Positions 2,521 to 48,927 of a stretch of DNA of 63,606 nt are shown here, one piece after another (positions within the stretch are counted from its first letter, which is position 1; the number at the start of each line of letters is the position of its first letter). The notes beneath the pieces were generated by a model. It ran no database searches. It was not told the origin of the DNA and saw only the letters and a program-made list of their open reading frames with translations. This DNA comes from Phycisphaerae bacterium (GTDB lineage Bacteria; Planctomycetota; Phycisphaerae; Phycisphaerales; Phycisphaeraceae): positions 1 through 63,606 of the forward strand of contig JAUHZU010000017.1 in NCBI GenBank assembly GCA_030425705.1. Direction: 5' to 3'. The position numbers and the translations under genes were made by a program.

Positions 2521-3712
2521 GGATCACCGCCTTGGGCGACAGCGCATACCAGGTACCGCGCCAACAGATCCGCCGATTGAACGACATCGTGATCAGGCAG
2601 CGGGCAAGGATTGATAAGACCATGAACGCGGAGAGCGGATACAGCCAGAGGTAGCGCCGGTCACACCCGCCCCAGCCCCAGAACCGGTAGCTGACTAGAT
2701 AAAGCAGGATGATGTGGCTGAGACAGACAAGGAGGATGGCGGTCAGCGTACTGTCGATCGGTGTGCCCTCGGCCAGCATGGCAAAAACAAGGATCGGCAA
2801 AGCGATGAACGGCAGAAGCGATCCCAGCAGAACCCAGAGCAGCGAGAGCAGAATTTTGAGCCGGCTGCGCAACGCACCGAAGTAGATCCGCTCCCACCCG
2901 GTGCGGATCGCGCGGAGCGAGTCGTACATGCGGACGGAGAAGAGCTGGGCCCCACCACCCGCCCAGCAGCGCAGGCCGTGTTGCTTTGCGTGCGCCCCGA
3001 GCGGGACGTCCTCGATGAGGCATCGGCTGACCGCTTCGTGACCTCCGATGGCTTCATAGGCCGCCTGCCGGATGAGGATGAACTGCCCGTTGGCGAAGCC
3101 CGGACCGCGTGTAAGGTCTTTGCGGTTCGCGGTGCCGAACCACAGCGCGATGACGCCGCCCAGCAGCGGGATCAGCAGGTGCTCCCAGAATCCGCCCCCA
3201 CGGTGCCGGGGCCACAGTGTCAGGAGGTCGCAACCGCGCTCACGAGCGGCTTCGATGGCGGTCGCGATCGCATCCGGTTCGAGGTGGCAGTCCGCATCAA
3301 TAAACAGGAGCCAATCGCAAGCAAGGCCGCGTGTACCGTGCCAGAGCGCGTACGACTTGCCCATCCATGCGTCGGGACGCTGCGTGACCTGCAATAACCG
3401 GAGACGCGAGTCATCGTCCGCGTGCTTTCGCACGACCGACGCCGTGGCATCTTCGCTCCGGTCATCGACCACCACCCCGTACCAGTTGGGGTAGGTCTGG
3501 CCGCGGAGATGCCGGAGGCACGCCCCGATCGCGTTGGCCTCGTTCCGCGCGGGGATAACCACCGCGACCCGCGGTGCCTGGCCGTTCGCCCAGCACTTAG
3601 GCCGGAGCAGCAGCCCCCGCCGGCGCGCCCCCGACTGCGCCATCCACAACCCAAGCCAGATGTTGCAAATCACCGACCAGGCCGCGAGCAGGATGATAGG
3701 CGCAGGATCCAA
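2513..3712 (-). CDS. Membrane-bound GT2 glycosyltransferase (HpnB/CrtQ-like)
   Basis: A 399-residue family-2 glycosyltransferase. It has an N-terminal membrane helix, the nucleotide-sugar-binding start VAVVIPARNEA (residues 49-59), VVDDRSEDAT, a DxD metal motif (DAD, 139-141), an acceptor-side segment with IEDVPLGAHAK, and three to four C-terminal helices. This arrangement is seen in hopene-associated HpnB and in carotenoid glycosyltransferase CrtQ, which transfer sugars to membrane lipids. The start is TTG, 35 bases after the lipoprotein gene, and the 3' end overlaps the RND exporter. I infer that it glycosylates the product of this operon before export. Donor and acceptor cannot be read from the sequence. 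Confidence 0.8.
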   Translation of the reverse strand: MDPAPIILLAAWSVICNIWLGLWMAQSGARRRGLLLRPKCWANGQAPRVAVVIPARNEANAIGACLRHLRGQTYPNWYGVVVDDRSEDATASVVRKHADDDSRLRLLQVTQRPDAWMGKSYALWHGTRGLACDWLLFIDADCHLEPDAIATAIEAARERGCDLLTLWPRHRGGGFWEHLLIPLLGGVIALWFGTANRKDLTRGPGFANGQFILIRQAAYEAIGGHEAVSRCLIEDVPLGAHAKQHGLRCWAGGGAQLFSVRMYDSLRAIRTGWERIYFGALRSRLKILLSLLWVLLGSLLPFIALPILVFAMLAEGTPIDSTLTAILLVCLSHIILLYLVSYRFWGWGGCDRRYLWLYPLSAFMVLSILARCLITMSFNRRICWRGTWYALSPKAVILD

Positions 3713-3746
3713 GCCGTGCTATTCCGTTCAATAGTGAAAGCAGTGA

Positions 3747-5288
3747 TCAGAAGCCGGACGGGAGGCGCATCGTCTTTTCGAGCAGCCGGGGGTCATCAAA
3801 GTCGTAAGCATCAAAGAGGATGAGCTGGGTCCCGCGTTGGCGGGGCTGGCCGGCACTGAGCATCCCGCTGGCGGCCAGCAGCACGCCCTCACGACGCTCC
3901 GCGCCCTTCACCAGGCCGTTGGCGTGGAACATACTCGTCACGCCACCCCCGGGCAGCCCCAGCGTTTCAAGGTGGGCATAGGGATAAAGCGTGTAGCCCA
4001 TCTCACCCGACAGCGTGGGGGCCGCCCGAGGCGCGAGCGAGACATCCACAACCAGGTGCTGCTGTGCGGCGCACCAGAACGTCAGCGGTGTGTCCTCTAC
4101 CCCGCCCACCAGCAGCCCAGGGACATCCAGCGCGGCCGCACCCGCGAGGTCACGCTCGATGCTGTATCTATGGCCGGGTACGGGTGGACCAAACTCCTCG
4201 GCGGCGGCATCGTCCAGCCGCCTGGCGGGATAGATGCCGTGGTAGCAACCGCAGTTGGCCACGGTCTCGACAAACGCCACGTACCCATCGTGGCCGAGCG
4301 TGACCCGGACGGTCACCCCGTCGATGTCGCCCGCCTCCGGGTCACGGGGATACGCGGGGGGGTGCTCGGGATACCAGAGCGTGTATACGAGTTGCCGGTG
4401 CTCGCTGCCGTTCACAAAGATCGAGCGCGTGTAGCCGTAGACCGCGGGTCGCTCGGTCACTACGCCGATGTGTTCCGCATCGATCGCCACCACCTCACCC
4501 AGCAGATCGCTGTCGGGGTCATAGTCCGACGAGGGGTTGTGCTCCTGGTATATCACTGGGGCGTAGCGCACCAGCAGGGCCCAGTCCTCGGGCGTTTCGT
4601 CCGGGCCGCTCGGGGCCGCTTCCGCCATGCGGTAGCAGAACGCCTGCTCAAAATCGGCCGAGAATTCCCGGGCTTCCAGGTCCTCCCGGATCCCGTTGAT
4701 CGCGATCCGGGTGGGGATCGCGAACGGCGACAGCAGCAGGCGGCGGAGGGACCGGCCACGCTCGCTGGCGGCGACGCGCAGATTCGCCCGGATGGGCGCA
4801 AGCACCCCCCGCAGCGATTCGACGCTGCTCGCCTCCTCGGCGGCATGCCGGAGGAACCAGTAGTGCTGGTCGGTGCGGGTGAGATATGCGTCGACGAGAT
4901 GGGATTTTGTCGCCTCGTCCGGAGAAACCGACACCCCAAAGTAGCGCGTGGCCAGCTCTTCCCAGCCCGCATCGTCCAGGCGTTCCAGTTCCTGCCGGGT
5001 CGACTCGGCGGACAGGCGGTGCGCGTCCTCGAGGAACGACAGCGCCAGGCCCCGGGCCAAGCCAAGATCGTCTTCCGCCAACGCGCGGTCGATCCGATCG
5101 ACGAGTTCGGCGTCCAACCGCAGGCACGGCCAGCCCTCGACCCGGCGGGCCTTGCCGTCCGCAACGCCGTGACGCTCGGTGACATCCTGAACCCCATCGA
5201 TGTATCGAGCCGGAGCGCTGCTGCACCCGACAAGTAAACCGAGTAGAGCACAATACAGAATGGATAACACGGTGGTCTTAGCCCGCAT
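3747..5288 (-). CDS. Large lipoprotein of unknown function
   Basis: A 513-residue protein with a signal peptide and lipobox (LVGC, Cys22), so probably lipid-anchored. I do not recognise a family. The N-terminal third is helical and charged. The C-terminal two thirds are rich in beta-type segments, with a hydrophobic LVRYAPVIYQEH stretch, VYTLWYPEHPPAYP, a HDGYVAFVETVANCGCYHG segment, and a late QQHLVVDVSL strand. The conserved-looking His, Cys and Tyr residues in the middle could be catalytic or metal-binding, but this is not established. The start at 5288 was chosen over an upstream one at 5309 because the Lys/Arg-then-hydrophobic signal peptide begins here. It overlaps the aminotransferase gene by 11 bases, so it belongs to the operon. 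Confidence 0.75.
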   Translation of the reverse strand: MRAKTTVLSILYCALLGLLVGCSSAPARYIDGVQDVTERHGVADGKARRVEGWPCLRLDAELVDRIDRALAEDDLGLARGLALSFLEDAHRLSAESTRQELERLDDAGWEELATRYFGVSVSPDEATKSHLVDAYLTRTDQHYWFLRHAAEEASSVESLRGVLAPIRANLRVAASERGRSLRRLLLSPFAIPTRIAINGIREDLEAREFSADFEQAFCYRMAEAAPSGPDETPEDWALLVRYAPVIYQEHNPSSDYDPDSDLLGEVVAIDAEHIGVVTERPAVYGYTRSIFVNGSEHRQLVYTLWYPEHPPAYPRDPEAGDIDGVTVRVTLGHDGYVAFVETVANCGCYHGIYPARRLDDAAAEEFGPPVPGHRYSIERDLAGAAALDVPGLLVGGVEDTPLTFWCAAQQHLVVDVSLAPRAAPTLSGEMGYTLYPYAHLETLGLPGGGVTSMFHANGLVKGAERREGVLLAASGMLSAGQPRQRGTQLILFDAYDFDDPRLLEKTMRLPSGF

Positions 5289-43425: not shown

Positions 43426-43463
43426 CCCGACGCTACATCGAGGACGCGAAAACGATTGAACCC

Positions 43464-43493
43464 AGCCCCCGCTGCAAGGCGGGGGCTGTTTCA
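43464..43493 (+). terminator. Hairpin terminator after the thioredoxin-like gene
   Basis: A GC stem of about nine to ten pairs (CAGCCCCCGC against GCGGGGGCTG) with a short CTGCAAGG-type loop is followed by a short run TTTC. The U-tract is weak, so the confidence is moderate. Confidence 0.6.
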
Positions 43494-43533
43494 TGCGCGA
43501 TACGTGCACGGCACACCGCTGCACGCCGCCGTC

Positions 43534-43545
43534 TACAATCCGGCG
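43534..43545 (+). promoter_or_regulatory. -10 box (TACAAT) six bases before the Nudix start
   Basis: TACAAT at 43534-43539 ends six bases before the ATG at 43546. With a start of transcription about seven bases after the box, the mRNA would begin at the start codon and be leaderless. The same arrangement occurs at pdxA. Confidence 0.4.
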
Positions 43546-44037
43546 ATGCAGGACGATGGGCCCGTGATCGAACGCCACGCCGCGCGAGTGCTGCTGCTGG
43601 ATGCGCGGGACCGGCTCCTGCTGTTCCGGTGCGAGGAGCCGGGGGCCGACCGGGCGTTCTGGATCACGCCGGGTGGGGGGCTGGAGCCCGGCGAGACGCA
43701 CGAGCAGGCCGCGCTGCGTGAACTGCGGGAAGAGGTCGGCCTGGTGGTGCCCGACGTCGGCCCTTGTGTCTGGACGCGGACGCACACGTTCCCCTGGCTC
43801 GGCCGGGTGTTCCGCCAGCACGAGCGGTTCCACCTGCTGCGGTGCCAGACGCACCAGGTCTCGGTCGAGGCGCACACGGAGGAGGAGCAGCGCGTGCTGA
43901 CCGCGCACCGCTGGTGGTCGGCCGAGGCGATCCGCGACGCGTCGGCAACCGCGTTCGCGCCGCGCGGGCTGGCCGACTGGCTGGAGCGGTTGCTGACCGA
44001 TGGCCTACCCGAAGCGCCGATCGATGTCGGGGCGTAG
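43546..44037 (+). CDS. Nudix hydrolase
   Basis: A 163-residue Nudix-fold protein. The Nudix box is GGGLEPGETHEQAALRELRE plus EVGL (pattern G-x5-E-x7-R-E-U-x-E-E-x-G-U), with all metal-binding Glu residues kept. The domain begins with AARVLLLDARDRLLLFRCEEP. Substrates of this group include nucleoside diphosphate derivatives; the exact one cannot be told. ATG at 43546 was chosen because the frame further upstream (to 43456) runs through the terminator hairpin and has no start signal. Probably leaderless. Confidence 0.85.
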   Translation: MQDDGPVIERHAARVLLLDARDRLLLFRCEEPGADRAFWITPGGGLEPGETHEQAALRELREEVGLVVPDVGPCVWTRTHTFPWLGRVFRQHERFHLLRCQTHQVSVEAHTEEEQRVLTAHRWWSAEAIRDASATAFAPRGLADWLERLLTDGLPEAPIDVGA

Positions 44038-44042
44038 CGACC

Positions 44043-44069
44043 AAAAAAAAGCCCCGGTGATCGGGGCTT
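44043..44069 (-). terminator. Intrinsic terminator of the TPR/alpha-CTD gene
   Basis: Read on the minus strand, AAGCCCCG and CGGGGCTT form an 8-bp stem around ATCAC, followed by a run of T (complement of the A-run at 44043-44050). It lies 35 bases beyond the stop of the TPR/alpha-CTD gene. On the plus strand the A-run precedes the hairpin, so it acts mainly for the minus gene. Confidence 0.85.
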
Positions 44070-44104: not shown

Positions 44105-45019
44105 TTAGTTGTCCAGCGTCCGCAGGCCCAGGCCCATCTCGACCAGCTTCTCCTTGATCTCGACCAGCGAGGTCATGCCGAAGTTCTTGACGCCCATCAG
44201 CTCGGCCTCGGTCTTCATGCATAGGTCGCCCAGCGACGCGACGTTGAGCAGCGCCAGCGCCTTGCGGGCCCGGACCGACAGGTCCAGTTCGTTGACGCTC
44301 TTGGAAAGCAGCGAGCTGTCGCCGGTCTCAGAGGCCAACTGGTCGATGACCTGCTGCTTGACCTCCTCCTGGTGCTGTTCGACGGCTTGGCCCAGGCGCA
44401 GGGACTTCTGCGCGAGCATCGCCTTGATCTCGTCCAGCGACGCGTCGCCGAAGTTCTTGAAACTGCGCAGCTCGGCCTCGGTGACCCGCAGCAGGTCGCC
44501 GAGGGTGCGGATGTTCATCTTCCGCAGCGCGTTGCGGGTGCGGACGGAGAGCTCGAAGTCGGTGACCGGCGTGTTGAGCAGGGCGTCCTGCTTGACCAGG
44601 CGGGCCTCCTGTTCATCATCGATCACCATCGCGCGGCTGGCGAGGATGTCCTTGATGTACAGGCGGGCACGCGGGTGGTTCGGGTCGGTTGTGAGCACCT
44701 GCCGGATGCAGCGCTCGGCCTGGCTGTACTTGCCCTGGTCCTCGTACATCACCGCGAGGTTGACCAGTGCGTTGAGCATCGGCCGCTCGACCCGGCAGCA
44801 CTCCTCGTAGAGGTGGATCGCCTCGTCCTCTTCGCCCAGGAGGTCAAGGTTGTACGCCAGGCGGAAGCAGACCTCGGTGCTGTCGGGGTCGGCAGTGTAC
44901 GCCGCTTCGTAGGCCTTGATGGCCTCGACACGGTCGCCTTTCTCCTCGGCTTCCAGGCCCTGCTTGTAGTACTTGCTGCTGGTCTCGGTGTCACGGACAT
45001 CCATCATCGTGTCAGGCAT
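44105..45019 (-). CDS. TPR protein with two RNA-polymerase alpha-CTD-like domains
   Basis: A 304-residue cytoplasmic protein. Residues 10-125 form three to four TPR repeats. They are followed by two copies of the helix-hairpin-helix C-terminal domain of RNA polymerase alpha: FELSVRTRNALRKMNIRTLG (about 155-174) and LDLSVRARKALALLNVASLG (about 245-264). Each continues with a KNFG...SL-EIK segment matching the alpha helix that contacts UP elements. The Arg equivalent to E. coli alpha Arg265 is kept in both copies and the Ser equivalent to Ser299 is also kept, whereas Lys298 is replaced by Ala or Thr. This suggests DNA-minor-groove or polymerase contact, but no family function is known to me. 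A strong terminator follows. Confidence 0.8.
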   Translation of the reverse strand: MPDTMMDVRDTETSSKYYKQGLEAEEKGDRVEAIKAYEAAYTADPDSTEVCFRLAYNLDLLGEEDEAIHLYEECCRVERPMLNALVNLAVMYEDQGKYSQAERCIRQVLTTDPNHPRARLYIKDILASRAMVIDDEQEARLVKQDALLNTPVTDFELSVRTRNALRKMNIRTLGDLLRVTEAELRSFKNFGDASLDEIKAMLAQKSLRLGQAVEQHQEEVKQQVIDQLASETGDSSLLSKSVNELDLSVRARKALALLNVASLGDLCMKTEAELMGVKNFGMTSLVEIKEKLVEMGLGLRTLDN

Positions 45020-45171
45020 GGAACGCGGTTCCTGGGGTGGGGCGGGTCGGTGGGGGGATGCGGTCGGTCGAACCCGACAAGATAGCCCGGCTCGGGTATC
45101 CGGGCAAACAGCACCCGGGCCGGCCGTGGGAACGGCCCGCCCGGGCACCGGGGGAACGGGTTGTCGGCGGG

Positions 45172-48100
45172 CTACTTTTCCTCGTCGGGGATGCCCGAGC
45201 CGCTGCGGTCCGGGTCGGCCGGCCGCGGGGCCGGGACGAACTGACCACCGTTTTCCAGGGTTTCCAGCAGGACCTCGACGGCCTTATCCATCTGCGGGTC
45301 GATGCCCCGGTGCATCAGCGCCGGGTCGGCGATGACCTCGATATCCGGGTCCACGCCGTGGCCCTCGATGCCCCAGGTGCCGTCGTTCTCGTAAAAGCCG
45401 AAGTTGGGCACGGAGAACTGCCCGCCGTCGATCAGGCCGGGCACGCCGCTGATGCCGACCAGCCCGCCCCAGGTCCGAGTGCCGATGAGCGGGCCCAACT
45501 CGTTCTGCTTGAACAGCCAGGGGAACATGTCGCCGCCCGAGCCCGCGAAGCCGTTGATCAGCATCGCCTTAGGTCCGGGGGCCGAGTCCGGGGGCCACTG
45601 CCAGTCGCGCCCGTTGCGCAGCGCCCAGTGGTTGGTCACCGGGCGGTTGAGCAGCTCGATGAACCGGTCGGGGATCTGCCCGCCGCCGTTGAACCGGTCG
45701 TCCACGATCATCGCGTCCATGTGCATCTGGCCGTAGAACTGGCGGAACAGCTCGTTCTGCCCGTTCGTGCCGGTGTCGGGGACGTAGATGTAGGCGATGC
45801 GTCCATCCGACTTGTCGTAGACGTACTGCCGGTTGGACTCGACCCACTGGCGGAAGCGGAGGTTGTACTCGGCGTTGCCATCGATCAGCGTCAGCGTGAC
45901 CTCGCGGGCCTCGTCGTCAATCACGGGCTTGGACGAGACGGTGAGCGTCACGATGTCGCCGGCCGTACCGATGAACGACGCCCAGGGGTCCATGCTCGTA
46001 TCGATCTCCCGGCCGTTGACCGCGAGGATGAAGTCGCCCTCGCTGATGTCGACGCCCGGCTCGCTGAGCGGGCCGCGGGCGTCCACGTCCCAGGGGCCGC
46101 CCTCGAGGATGTCGGCGACGCGATAGGCGGTGCCTTCCTCGGTGGTCGCGAGTTCGAGGTCTGCGCCGAGCATGCCGACGTCGATGTTCGGCTCGGCCTC
46201 GGCGTTACCGCCCATGTTGTAGGCGTGTCCGACATTCAACTCGCCGATCATCTCACCGATGATGTAGTCGATGTCCTGGCGGTTGACCGAGTCGTCGATC
46301 ATCGCGTCGTAGTGCGCGTGGACCGCGTCCCAGTCCACACCGTGCATGTTCTCGACGTAGAAGAAGTCGCGGTACCGCCGCCAGACATCGCGGAGGACCT
46401 GCCGCCATTCCTCGCGCGGGTTGATGCGGACGAGCATGTTGTCCGTCGGGATCGCGTTGGCGAGGGACTGGCCCTTCGCCGCGTTGATGATCGCCAGGCC
46501 GGACGGCCCGAAGACCCCGAGCTTCTTGCCGTCGCCGCTCATCACATACCCGCCGACGCCCGACACGACGTTGCCCTCGCTCGGGTCGTCCGCGTGCATG
46601 TCGAACAGCTTGATCGACGGCATACCGCCCTCGACCCGCATGTAGATCAACTGGTTGTTGCTGTTGACCGAGAGCATGGTCATCTGACCCTTCGCGACGG
46701 GCAGCAGCATGCCCCGGCTCTCGATGCCTTCGAAGTCGATGACCAGCGGTTCGTCGTCGGCGTCTGCACCGCCGCCCTCGCCATCGCCGGCGTCGTCGCC
46801 GGTCTTGGTCGCTTCCCACGTGCCGTTGAAGCCCAGGTCGGGCAGCGCCCACGTGCCGGTCAGCGTGTCGCCCTCCAGCGTCGCGGTCATGATGGACTTC
46901 ACGCCGTCTTCTTCGTCCGTTACGGTCAGCGTGCCCGTCTCTTCGTCAAACGTGATCGTGCCGGCGTCGTCGGACTCGCCCATGACCTCGGCGGTCGCGG
47001 AGATGTTGCCGTCTTCATCAACAAACACCGTCAGGGAGAAGGCGATCTCGTCGTCCTCGGCCCCCAGCGCCGCGAACCCGCGCATCACGCCTTCCCACGT
47101 GCCGTGCAGCGGGTGCTTCTCGGTGTCGGCGTCCGCCTCTGCGTCTGCGTCCCCATCGCCCTCGCCTTCGGCGTCATCGGCCTGAGCGTCTTCGCCCTCG
47201 GCGGCTTCGTCTTCCGCCGCCTCTTCCTCCCAGGTCTCCTCGTCGCTCTCCACAAGGAACGGCGAAGCGACATCCTCCCGCAACGGCACGGCGACAAGCC
47301 GGCCCGCGCCGCTGTAGACGAAGGTGCGGTACCAGTCGTCGTACTGTGGGTTGGTAAAGTCCATGTACGAGACGTAGTAGAGGAAGTCCCCGGTCCGGTC
47401 GAACGCCGGGGAATCCGCGTGGAAGAACGGCTGGGTGATCTGGTGGGCCTCGCCGGCCTCCAGGTCGTACACATAAATCGAACTGGTCTGCGCCCGGTCG
47501 TCCGGCCGTGAGTACGTGACCCACTTCGAGTCGTGTGACCAGTTCGCCCCGACCCCGCCGCCGCCGGCCGAGGGCATCGTGTCGATGATCTGTGTCGACG
47601 CTTCCGCGTCGCCATCGGGCAGCGTGGTCACGTAGATGTGCCCGCGCTGGTCCTGGAACATGATCTTCTTGGAGTCCGGCGACCACTGCGGCTGGAAGAA
47701 GTACCCGCCGTCGATATCCGTCAGCCGGATCGTCTCGCCCTTGCCGTCGGACTGGGTGATGTAGAGGTTGTACTCCCCGCTCTCGTCGGAGAAGTAGCTG
47801 ACCCACTTGCCGCTGGGGCTCCACGCCGGGGCCCGCTCGGCGACGCCGTCGGTATCCGTCAGGTTGCGCGGCGGGCCGTTCTCCGCGGGCAGGGTCCAGA
47901 CATCGCCCCGCGCCTCCACAACCGCGCGCTGCCCGGTCGACGACACGCCGCCGTCCATGATGTAGTTCGACGCATCGACCATCTGCTCACGCAGCGTCGC
48001 ACGCACGCCCGGCACGATGACCTCCACGGCCTCGGCCTCGCCCGTGGCCAGGTCCAGCAGCATCAGGTCCGCGCCGAGTTGGAAGACGATCTCCCCGCCG

Positions 48101-48927
48101 CCTGCAGGGCCCGGGCCGATCGACGGGAACTTCACATCGTTGTCGGTGTAGTGGGTGACCTGCTCGGACTCGGCGTTGGCCGTGTCATAGACCCACAGGT
48201 TCAGCCGGCCCGACTCGCTGTTGTCCGAGAGGTAGTAGAGCCTGCTGCCGTGCCACATCGGCAGGGTGTCCGTCCCCGCGAAGTCGGTCACCTGCATCGC
48301 CTCGTGGGTCTCGAGGTTGTAGAGCCAGATGTCCTGGGCCAGGCCGCCCTGGTACCGCTTCCACGTGCGGTTCTCACGGATCGACGGCGTGTACGCCAGC
48401 CAGACCCCATCCGCGGAGATCGCGCCGTTGCCGCCGTAGGGAATCGGCAGCTTTTCGGGCATCCCGCCGTCGGCGCTGACGGTGTAGATCCCCGGCCCCT
48501 GGGCATGGCTGCCGGGGTAGATCCACGAGCTAAAGATCAGCCGGCCGTCCGCCGTCCAGTCGCTCAACGACTCGTTGGCCGGGTGGTGGGTGACCCGGTA
48601 GGGGACCTCGCTGTTCAGGTCCACGGTGTAGAGGTCGCGGTCGCCCTCGTAGTTGCCCACGAACGCGATGGTCCGGCCGTCGGCGCTGAAACGTGGGGTG
48701 CTCTCCTGCCCCGGCGGGCTCGCGACGGGCTGTGCCGTGCCGCCGCTGCGGGGGACGACCCACAAGTCGTTGGCGTAGACAAAGGTGATGTGGCTGGCGC
48801 TCACGTCCGGGGTACGCAGCATCCCGGCGTGCGGGCGGGCGTCCTGCGCCAGCGCCGCCATCGGGAGCGAAGCGACCGCAAGGATCGCGGACAGGGACCG
48901 TCGGGACGGCAGGCGGAGTCGTGACAA
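45172..48927 (-). CDS. Tricorn-type S41 protease with acidic insertion
   Basis: A 1251-residue exported protein (signal peptide ILAVASLPMAALAQ). The N-terminal two thirds are WD40-like beta-propeller repeats of tricorn protease (HITFVYANDLWVVPRSGG, STPRFSADGRTIAFVGNYEG, APAWSPSGKWVSYFSDESGE). They are interrupted at about 555-720 by an acidic Glu/Asp stretch and a beta-rich domain. Then follow the core domain, a PDZ-like part (DISEGDFILAVNGREID) and the S41 catalytic region. The nucleophile is Ser1130 in NGFAGSGGDMF, with a putative catalytic His in LNVGHAYN and Glu in GIEGHGVDPD. The Ser found before this His in tricorn is a Gly here. The start is TTG with AAGGAG seven bases upstream. Likely secreted peptide degradation. 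Confidence 0.85.
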   Translation of the reverse strand: MSRLRLPSRRSLSAILAVASLPMAALAQDARPHAGMLRTPDVSASHITFVYANDLWVVPRSGGTAQPVASPPGQESTPRFSADGRTIAFVGNYEGDRDLYTVDLNSEVPYRVTHHPANESLSDWTADGRLIFSSWIYPGSHAQGPGIYTVSADGGMPEKLPIPYGGNGAISADGVWLAYTPSIRENRTWKRYQGGLAQDIWLYNLETHEAMQVTDFAGTDTLPMWHGSRLYYLSDNSESGRLNLWVYDTANAESEQVTHYTDNDVKFPSIGPGPAGGGEIVFQLGADLMLLDLATGEAEAVEVIVPGVRATLREQMVDASNYIMDGGVSSTGQRAVVEARGDVWTLPAENGPPRNLTDTDGVAERAPAWSPSGKWVSYFSDESGEYNLYITQSDGKGETIRLTDIDGGYFFQPQWSPDSKKIMFQDQRGHIYVTTLPDGDAEASTQIIDTMPSAGGGGVGANWSHDSKWVTYSRPDDRAQTSSIYVYDLEAGEAHQITQPFFHADSPAFDRTGDFLYYVSYMDFTNPQYDDWYRTFVYSGAGRLVAVPLREDVASPFLVESDEETWEEEAAEDEAAEGEDAQADDAEGEGDGDADAEADADTEKHPLHGTWEGVMRGFAALGAEDDEIAFSLTVFVDEDGNISATAEVMGESDDAGTITFDEETGTLTVTDEEDGVKSIMTATLEGDTLTGTWALPDLGFNGTWEATKTGDDAGDGEGGGADADDEPLVIDFEGIESRGMLLPVAKGQMTMLSVNSNNQLIYMRVEGGMPSIKLFDMHADDPSEGNVVSGVGGYVMSGDGKKLGVFGPSGLAIINAAKGQSLANAIPTDNMLVRINPREEWRQVLRDVWRRYRDFFYVENMHGVDWDAVHAHYDAMIDDSVNRQDIDYIIGEMIGELNVGHAYNMGGNAEAEPNIDVGMLGADLELATTEEGTAYRVADILEGGPWDVDARGPLSEPGVDISEGDFILAVNGREIDTSMDPWASFIGTAGDIVTLTVSSKPVIDDEAREVTLTLIDGNAEYNLRFRQWVESNRQYVYDKSDGRIAYIYVPDTGTNGQNELFRQFYGQMHMDAMIVDDRFNGGGQIPDRFIELLNRPVTNHWALRNGRDWQWPPDSAPGPKAMLINGFAGSGGDMFPWLFKQNELGPLIGTRTWGGLVGISGVPGLIDGGQFSVPNFGFYENDGTWGIEGHGVDPDIEVIADPALMHRGIDPQMDKAVEVLLETLENGGQFVPAPRPADPDRSGSGIPDEEK

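Follow-up and report, generated by a model that had tools for sequence, protein, structure and literature searches.

Can the C-terminal domain of the RNA polymerase alpha subunit (alpha-CTD) work when it is detached from that subunit? A direct test is offered by a protein encoded in a 63,606-nucleotide stretch of DNA from a Phycisphaerae bacterium (contig JAUHZU010000017.1; hereafter the window), in which two alpha-CTDs are joined to TPRs. Based on the sequence, the original prediction held that such a protein could bridge promoter DNA and polymerase or other proteins, acting as a transcription factor of a new type.

Architecture, spread and origin of the protein

The predicted frame proved exact, and Pfam matches both kinds of domain in its product above their cut-offs: RNA_pol_A_CTD (PF03118) in two stretches (131.3 bits, 1e-38; cut-off 23.8) and TPR_2 in three (57.4 bits, 7e-16; cut-off 27). 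The features of the gene and its surroundings, with residues numbered as in E. coli RpoA where equivalents are given, are as follows:

44105 to 45019, minus strand: TPR/twin alpha-CTD protein, 304 amino acids plus stop (open reading frame and Pfam)
44627 to 44989, minus strand: TPR region, residues 11-131 (Pfam TPR_2, TPR_8 and TPR_1; AlphaFold2 helices)
44390 to 44569, minus strand: first alpha-CTD (C1), residues 151-210, with R160 equivalent to Arg265 and S194 to Ser299
44120 to 44299, minus strand: second alpha-CTD (C2), residues 241-300, with R250 equivalent to Arg265, S284 to Ser299 and K253 at the place of Asn268
44041 to 44069, minus strand: intrinsic terminator, an 8-pair stem (44069-44049) followed by T's (terminator scan)
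45079 to 45108, minus strand: promoter-like site TTTGCC-N18-TATCTT, resembling a sigma-70 promoter (pattern search)
45172 to 48927, minus strand: upstream neighbour, 1251 amino acids, peptidase-like by eye only, outside the system
43456 to 44037, plus strand: convergent NUDIX-type neighbour, named via a homologue, outside the system

AlphaFold2 (69 sequences; mean pLDDT 94.3) placed helices at residues 11-131 (TPR), about 150-210 (C1), 211-232 (linker) and 235-300 (C2), the domains being confident and their relative placement uncertain (pTM 0.64). A 441-residue form found in another part of the phylum was modelled with a longer array of helices at the N terminus (pLDDT 91.7, pTM 0.64). The best 50 matches of a fold search against the PDB were TPR structures, uninformative on the alpha-CTDs, and solved alpha-CTD relatives were found by sequence. 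The protein shares with RpoA the domain family, R265, G296, S299 and E302, plus N268 in C1, but it has no alpha-NTD, carries two alpha-CTDs with TPRs instead, and differs at K/R268 (C2), E/D297 (C1) and R267 (both copies). Only the C-terminal part of full-length rpoA models aligns to it, below their cut-offs; with TIGR02027 it scored 123.9 (cut-off 227.8), and the best stretch spans only model positions 222-297 of 298. The sole further alpha-CTD match in the source genome is RpoA, a separate gene.

Among known systems, the BREX kinase PglW (NF033442) also has an alpha-CTD-like stretch outside RpoA, but the window protein reached 32.1 bits against a cut-off of 990 and no kinase domain is among the Pfam matches listed for it. 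SARP activators with TPRs, such as AfsR, are likewise TPR-bearing transcription proteins (PMC10936776, excerpt), whereas the winged-helix SARP domain is absent from the best 25 of 26 Pfam matches of the window protein. The component domains are known; for the combination of TPRs with two alpha-CTDs and for its presence throughout a phylum, we found no paper. Among the open-licence PMC papers listed, titles and abstract openings named neither the protein nor its domain combination or near-universality, and the available part of PMC12283558 does not mention it; the architecture may already be listed in domain databases. Separately, two very long frames (L155:2656-6984 and L156:2068-6576; 1443 and 1503 amino acids) contain a weak alpha-CTD-like stretch and are perhaps PglW-like.

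Of 244 Planctomycetota genomes with a completeness of 90% or more, 241 had the twin alpha-CTD protein (E<=1e-15), with one match in 238 genomes and two in three (G242, G253 and G256), counts from which extra copies could be missing since nine candidates were scored per genome. The G256 protein and the second G242 copy have their alpha-CTD part at the end of a contig. Of the three genomes without a match, G138 had fragments at a contig edge, whereas G198 and G082 (the latter in a contig-terminal fragment) had an RpoA-type domain only. At 1e-20, 57 of 61 near genomes, the source included, had a match, two of them having two matches, one of which was split between contig ends. A contig scan with peptides specific to near relatives gave 28 loci, all Phycisphaerae or Planctomycetota by name. 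The cellular survey covered Planctomycetota only, and a plasmid search with the protein gave no match. Planctomycete genomes also hold small frames whose one alpha-CTD is closest to the RpoA type (L158:1957-2226 and L159:2036-2500; 90 and 155 amino acids).

In a tree of 137 domains and only 60 columns, built from a chosen subset with three test rows and many C1 and C2 rows left out and with bootstrap not settled, C1, C2 and RpoA domains formed separate lineages. The C1 domains grouped together (48 of 49, L107_C1 lying outside) along with two long-branched viral rows, the C2 domains (62 of 62; 98/90) with two viral rows, and the RpoA domains (19 of 19; 98/93) with two small stand-alone domains and one viral row. 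This topology fits a twin arrangement that would have arisen before the sampled phylum diversified.

Residues kept and changed in C1 and C2

In the E. coli alpha-CTD, R265 and N268 contact DNA and are critical for binding, and the N268A or N268W substitution abolishes UP-element activation (PMC11434276, excerpt). We compared these and other positions in 106 homologues, retained from 121 loci after removal of duplicates identical over the last 200 residues, with 17 planctomycete RpoA domains taken from single-domain frames of 300-420 amino acids among 31 loci (the 545-residue L134 and the 73-residue fragment L141 were dropped). Arg265 is near-invariant (C1 105/106, with one Q; C2 106/106; RpoA 17/17) and has thus not been lost from most homologues, while Ser299 is mostly kept (C1 101/106; C2 100/106; in RpoA, S in 9 and T in 7 of 17), so that the expectation that both DNA-contacting equivalents persist, as R160/S194 and R250/S284 in the window protein, was borne out. 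Gly296 occurs in 106/106 C1 and 102/106 C2 copies, and Glu302 in all 106 of each.

The two copies are unequal. C2 has mostly lost Asn268, with K in 80, R in 20, N in 4 and others in 2 of the 106, whereas C1 keeps it in 96 (T in 8, D in 1, S in 1) and RpoA in 16/17. C1 in turn is acidic at position 297 in all 106 copies (E 76, D 30), where RpoA has K or R in 13/17, a change expected to weaken contact with a phosphate. An arginine occupies position 267 in 101/106 of each copy against 2/17 in RpoA, and position 273, unlike that of most RpoA, is hydrophobic in both (M in 103/106 C1, L in 102/106 C2), so part of this surface may be an interface, either intramolecular or with a partner. The lysine at E. 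coli position 298 is not kept in C1 (T 53, A 34, S 15) or C2 (T 100), but planctomycete RpoA has T298 in 17/17, so this position does not separate the twin protein from RpoA.

Positions 259 and 261 of the alpha-CTD contact sigma region 4, and each is acidic in 106/106 C1 copies, compared with 12 and 13 of the 17 RpoA domains. C1 is also the most conserved part of the protein: in a 44-sequence set its mean majority-residue share is 0.80, while C2 reaches 0.63 and the TPR region 0.53; the value for the 17 RpoA alpha-CTDs, which come from a different and smaller genome set, is 0.68. The mean net charge is +1.8 for C1 and +1.1 for C2 (106 each) and -0.5 for the 17 RpoA domains. One RpoA outside the set of 17 (L160:2200-3219, minus strand, genome G254) has an alpha-CTD that, read by eye, is degenerate, with R265 kept and N268, C269 and G296 changed; adding it would lower the RpoA conservation counts, and in the TPR protein of G254 two alpha-CTD matches exceed the cut-off.

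A role in transcription is the likeliest reading of these sequences, and we put at slightly better than even (about 0.52) the probability that the protein is a core transcription accessory protein of Planctomycetota, with C1 on promoter DNA and the TPR region docking a partner. Two alpha-CTDs, already distinct from the RpoA domain when the sampled phylum began to diversify, would sit on a TPR scaffold. Since C1 keeps both the Arg265/Asn268 pair and acidic 259/261, its plainest reading is that it binds A/T-rich DNA upstream of promoters and may touch sigma region 4. With Arg265 retained but Lys/Arg in place of Asn268, C2 may bind DNA differently or dock on another protein. If the TPR region holds a partner, the twin protein would supply extra alpha-CTD contacts in trans; DNA, polymerase and sigma contacts, like the TPR partner, are inferred. 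Basic transcription in Planctomycetota would then include an unrecognised, conserved protein that uses polymerase-derived DNA-binding domains and nearly always occurs as a single match. The basic residue at 268 in 100/106 C2 copies, set beside the effect of the E. coli N268 mutants, counts against this proposal, as do the acidic 297 of C1 and the hydrophobic 273 of both copies.

The same residues can be read another way, in which the alpha-CTD copies would serve chiefly as docking surfaces for proteins such as activators, sigma or further regulators, titrating or re-routing these with little DNA binding. Asn268 lost from C2, the acidic 297 of C1, the hydrophobic 273 of both copies, which most RpoA lack, and the TPRs, which are protein-binding repeats, would all suit such a decoy or adaptor. 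Arg265, however, is a known DNA contact and is invariant in C2 too (106/106), and Arg267 in 101/106 of each copy together with the basic 268 of C2 would be needless in a pure protein decoy; we regard this alternative as unlikely.

Surroundings of the gene in the window and in relatives

The gene has its own terminator, as had been predicted, with the stem at 44069-44049 and the T's lying on its strand; the region holds three terminator-like sites on both strands against a mean of 1.0 in shuffles. Sites related to TTTGCC-N18-TATCTT occurred at varying distances upstream of 18 of 30 members, where 0.9 were expected from mononucleotide shuffles, the pattern having been chosen post hoc from inspected upstream sequences; a stock promoter scan did not report the site. 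A palindrome (GGAACGCGGTTCC, 45020-45032) abuts the start codon, and was rejected as an operator, being absent from the nearest relatives compared. The claim that the gene stands alone holds on the downstream side, where the next gene converges, but not entirely upstream, where the neighbour at 45172 to 48927 runs in the same direction 152 bases away. The NUDIX name of the convergent gene derives from a homologue (L057:2885-3451) that matches NUDIX in Pfam and is linked to the window gene by phmmer; at 6 of the 28 nearer-relative loci a NUDIX gene follows in the same orientation.

Elsewhere in the phylum the surroundings differ. We picked 40 loci (L085-L124) from diverse families of the 244-genome survey and named neighbour families by Pfam. 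In 28 of them, the first labelled gene to follow on the same strand, at most 400 bases away, was ruvA (20), spoIID (5) or tgt (3). Among the other 12, three (L089, L101 and L108) had spoIID, tgt or ruvA in an overlapping frame, L106 had ruvA 499 bases away, L113 had ruvA on the opposite strand, and seven showed none. At any distance downstream within the retrieved sequence, on the gene's own strand, ruvA occurred in 21 of the 40 loci, tgt and yajC in 11 each, spoIID and secDF in 10 each, ruvB in 6 and queH in 4, the entire string ruvA-ruvB-queH-spoIID-tgt-yajC-secDF being present at L103, L109 and L122. In many other lineages the twin alpha-CTD gene thus often heads a ruvAB/tgt/secDF string, none of whose genes was found beside it in the window or in the 28 nearer-relative loci (flanks of at most 4 kb, some cut by contig ends). 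Given the string in the diverse loci, the lone state of the window gene is probably derived.

Such neighbours could mean that the protein is an accessory of recombination or repair whose helix-hairpin-helix-type domains bind DNA and which works with RuvA/RuvB. The alpha-CTD belongs to that fold class (in the window protein HHH_5 matches weakly, at 17.4 bits where the cut-off is 27); ruvA is downstream in 21/40 loci, adjoining in 20, and ruvB in 6. But spoIID (5) or tgt (3) is the next gene in other lineages and the string was not found in the window or the 28 nearer-relative loci, which makes the link look like gene order retained by descent. Signature residues of the alpha-CTD that have no tie to junction binding are kept, moreover, and we consider a recombination role less probable still than that of a decoy. 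The tgt, queH, yajC and secDF genes of the string, which represent tRNA modification and secretion, would suit re-use of the domains outside transcription, for example in a ribosome- or RNA-associated scaffold. We give this the smallest chance of the three alternatives, because C1, the most conserved part of the protein, keeps the DNA-contact positions and 259/261.

C2-type domains on viral contigs

Alpha-CTDs were also found on viral contigs of IMG/VR, where a scan with the protein profile gave 10 loci from 78 candidate stretches and a scan with the C2 profile gave 8 loci from 33, three of these on contigs already found. We scored the viral domains with our own C1, C2 and RpoA models, the last built from 17 planctomycete domains plus those of E. 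coli and B. subtilis, so that RpoA of other phyla is poorly represented and the RpoA rows scored are the rows that built the model. A C2-type domain was present on seven contigs, in five different sequences:

L178/L179 (same contigs as L168/L169): C2 92.5, RpoA 72.9
L180/L181: C2 85.4, RpoA 61.7
L182 (same contig as L170): C2 86.6, RpoA 78.6
L183: C2 76.2, RpoA 59.4
L184, last domain: C2 64.5, RpoA 54.2

The remaining domains scored best as RpoA in L185 (61.5 against 57.2) and L176 (77.1 against 66.2) and narrowly so in L177 (52.8 against 50.7), leaned towards C2 in L171 (54.9 against 47.6), and were near-equal in L174 (53.8; C1 51.6, RpoA 48.2) and L172 (C1 55.8, C2 52.9, RpoA 49.5). L168 and L170, each 65% identical to the best C2, 52% to the best C1 and 50% to the best RpoA, were placed inside the C2 group of the domain tree.

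Other than in L184, the viral C2-type frames are short (75-146 amino acids) with one alpha-CTD each. L184:5113-6252 (plus strand), on a 198-kb viral contig, encodes a 380-residue protein with four tandem alpha-CTDs and no TPR match, of which the second is C1-type (79.8 against RpoA 52.9), the fourth C2-type and the other two degenerate. Three C2-type genes (L169:3986-4210, L180:6001-6216 and L183:699-881) lie 1.0-1.5 kb from a convergent terminase large subunit gene of the same PHROG, and L185 has terminase and portal genes. Among the few proteins scanned, L170/L182 and L184 had no structural gene, and the four-domain L184 protein itself matched a head-morphogenesis family weakly (2e-5). A search for the viral group's terminase across 294 Planctomycetota genomes, meant to link the group to a host, gave distant matches in just 2, and no host was assigned.

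In a search of phage records with the whole protein, 11 were matched, none covering 80% of the query; of the best 10, four were annotated as RpoA and the rest had no annotation. The L169 domain also matched 11 records, all below 60% identity and 10 covering at least 80%: three Salmonella records, of which two bear an RpoA annotation, and eight unannotated records from faecal phages. In BFVD, proteins of uncultured Caudovirales likewise carry the name "RNA polymerase, alpha subunit, C-terminal"; phage alpha-CTD proteins have a single alpha-CTD in short frames, except for the four of L184. Since alpha-CTD genes occur in phages unlinked to the twin protein, viral copies alone prove little about function, and only the C2-type viral domains bear on it.

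A staphylococcal phage protein is known to act by disturbing the contact between alpha-CTD and UP element (PMC4495994, excerpt). The viral C2 copies suggest that a contact of the twin protein may be worth hijacking and provide a ready-made competitor. Free C2-type domains would also suit the competition that a decoy or adaptor implies. The twin protein of nearly all planctomycete genomes surveyed, which joins two polymerase-type DNA-reading tips to protein-binding repeats, and the viral contigs that carry one of these tips on its own point to an unrecognised transcription factor. We tentatively extend this to a phylum-wide component, absent from textbooks, whose TPR scaffold would bring a further two alpha-CTDs in trans to the polymerase's own two, while the loose viral C2 copies and the one four-domain array with C1- and C2-type domains would block or capture the same contacts, a fuller picture that we hold somewhat less probable than not. 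The transcription-factor reading of the original prediction stands in part: two genuine alpha-CTDs, Arg265/Ser299, the promoter-like site and the terminator agree with it, whereas the phylum-wide spread, the unequal copies, the ruvAB/tgt/secDF string of other lineages and the viral C2-type domains were unforeseen.

Two minor groups of viral domains were also seen. The eight unannotated faecal phage records contain alpha-CTD-like stretches 31-43% identical to the L169 domain, and in the viral proteins of L172 and L174 (about 3629-4402) a distinct, long-branched alpha-CTD follows some 90-120 N-terminal residues.
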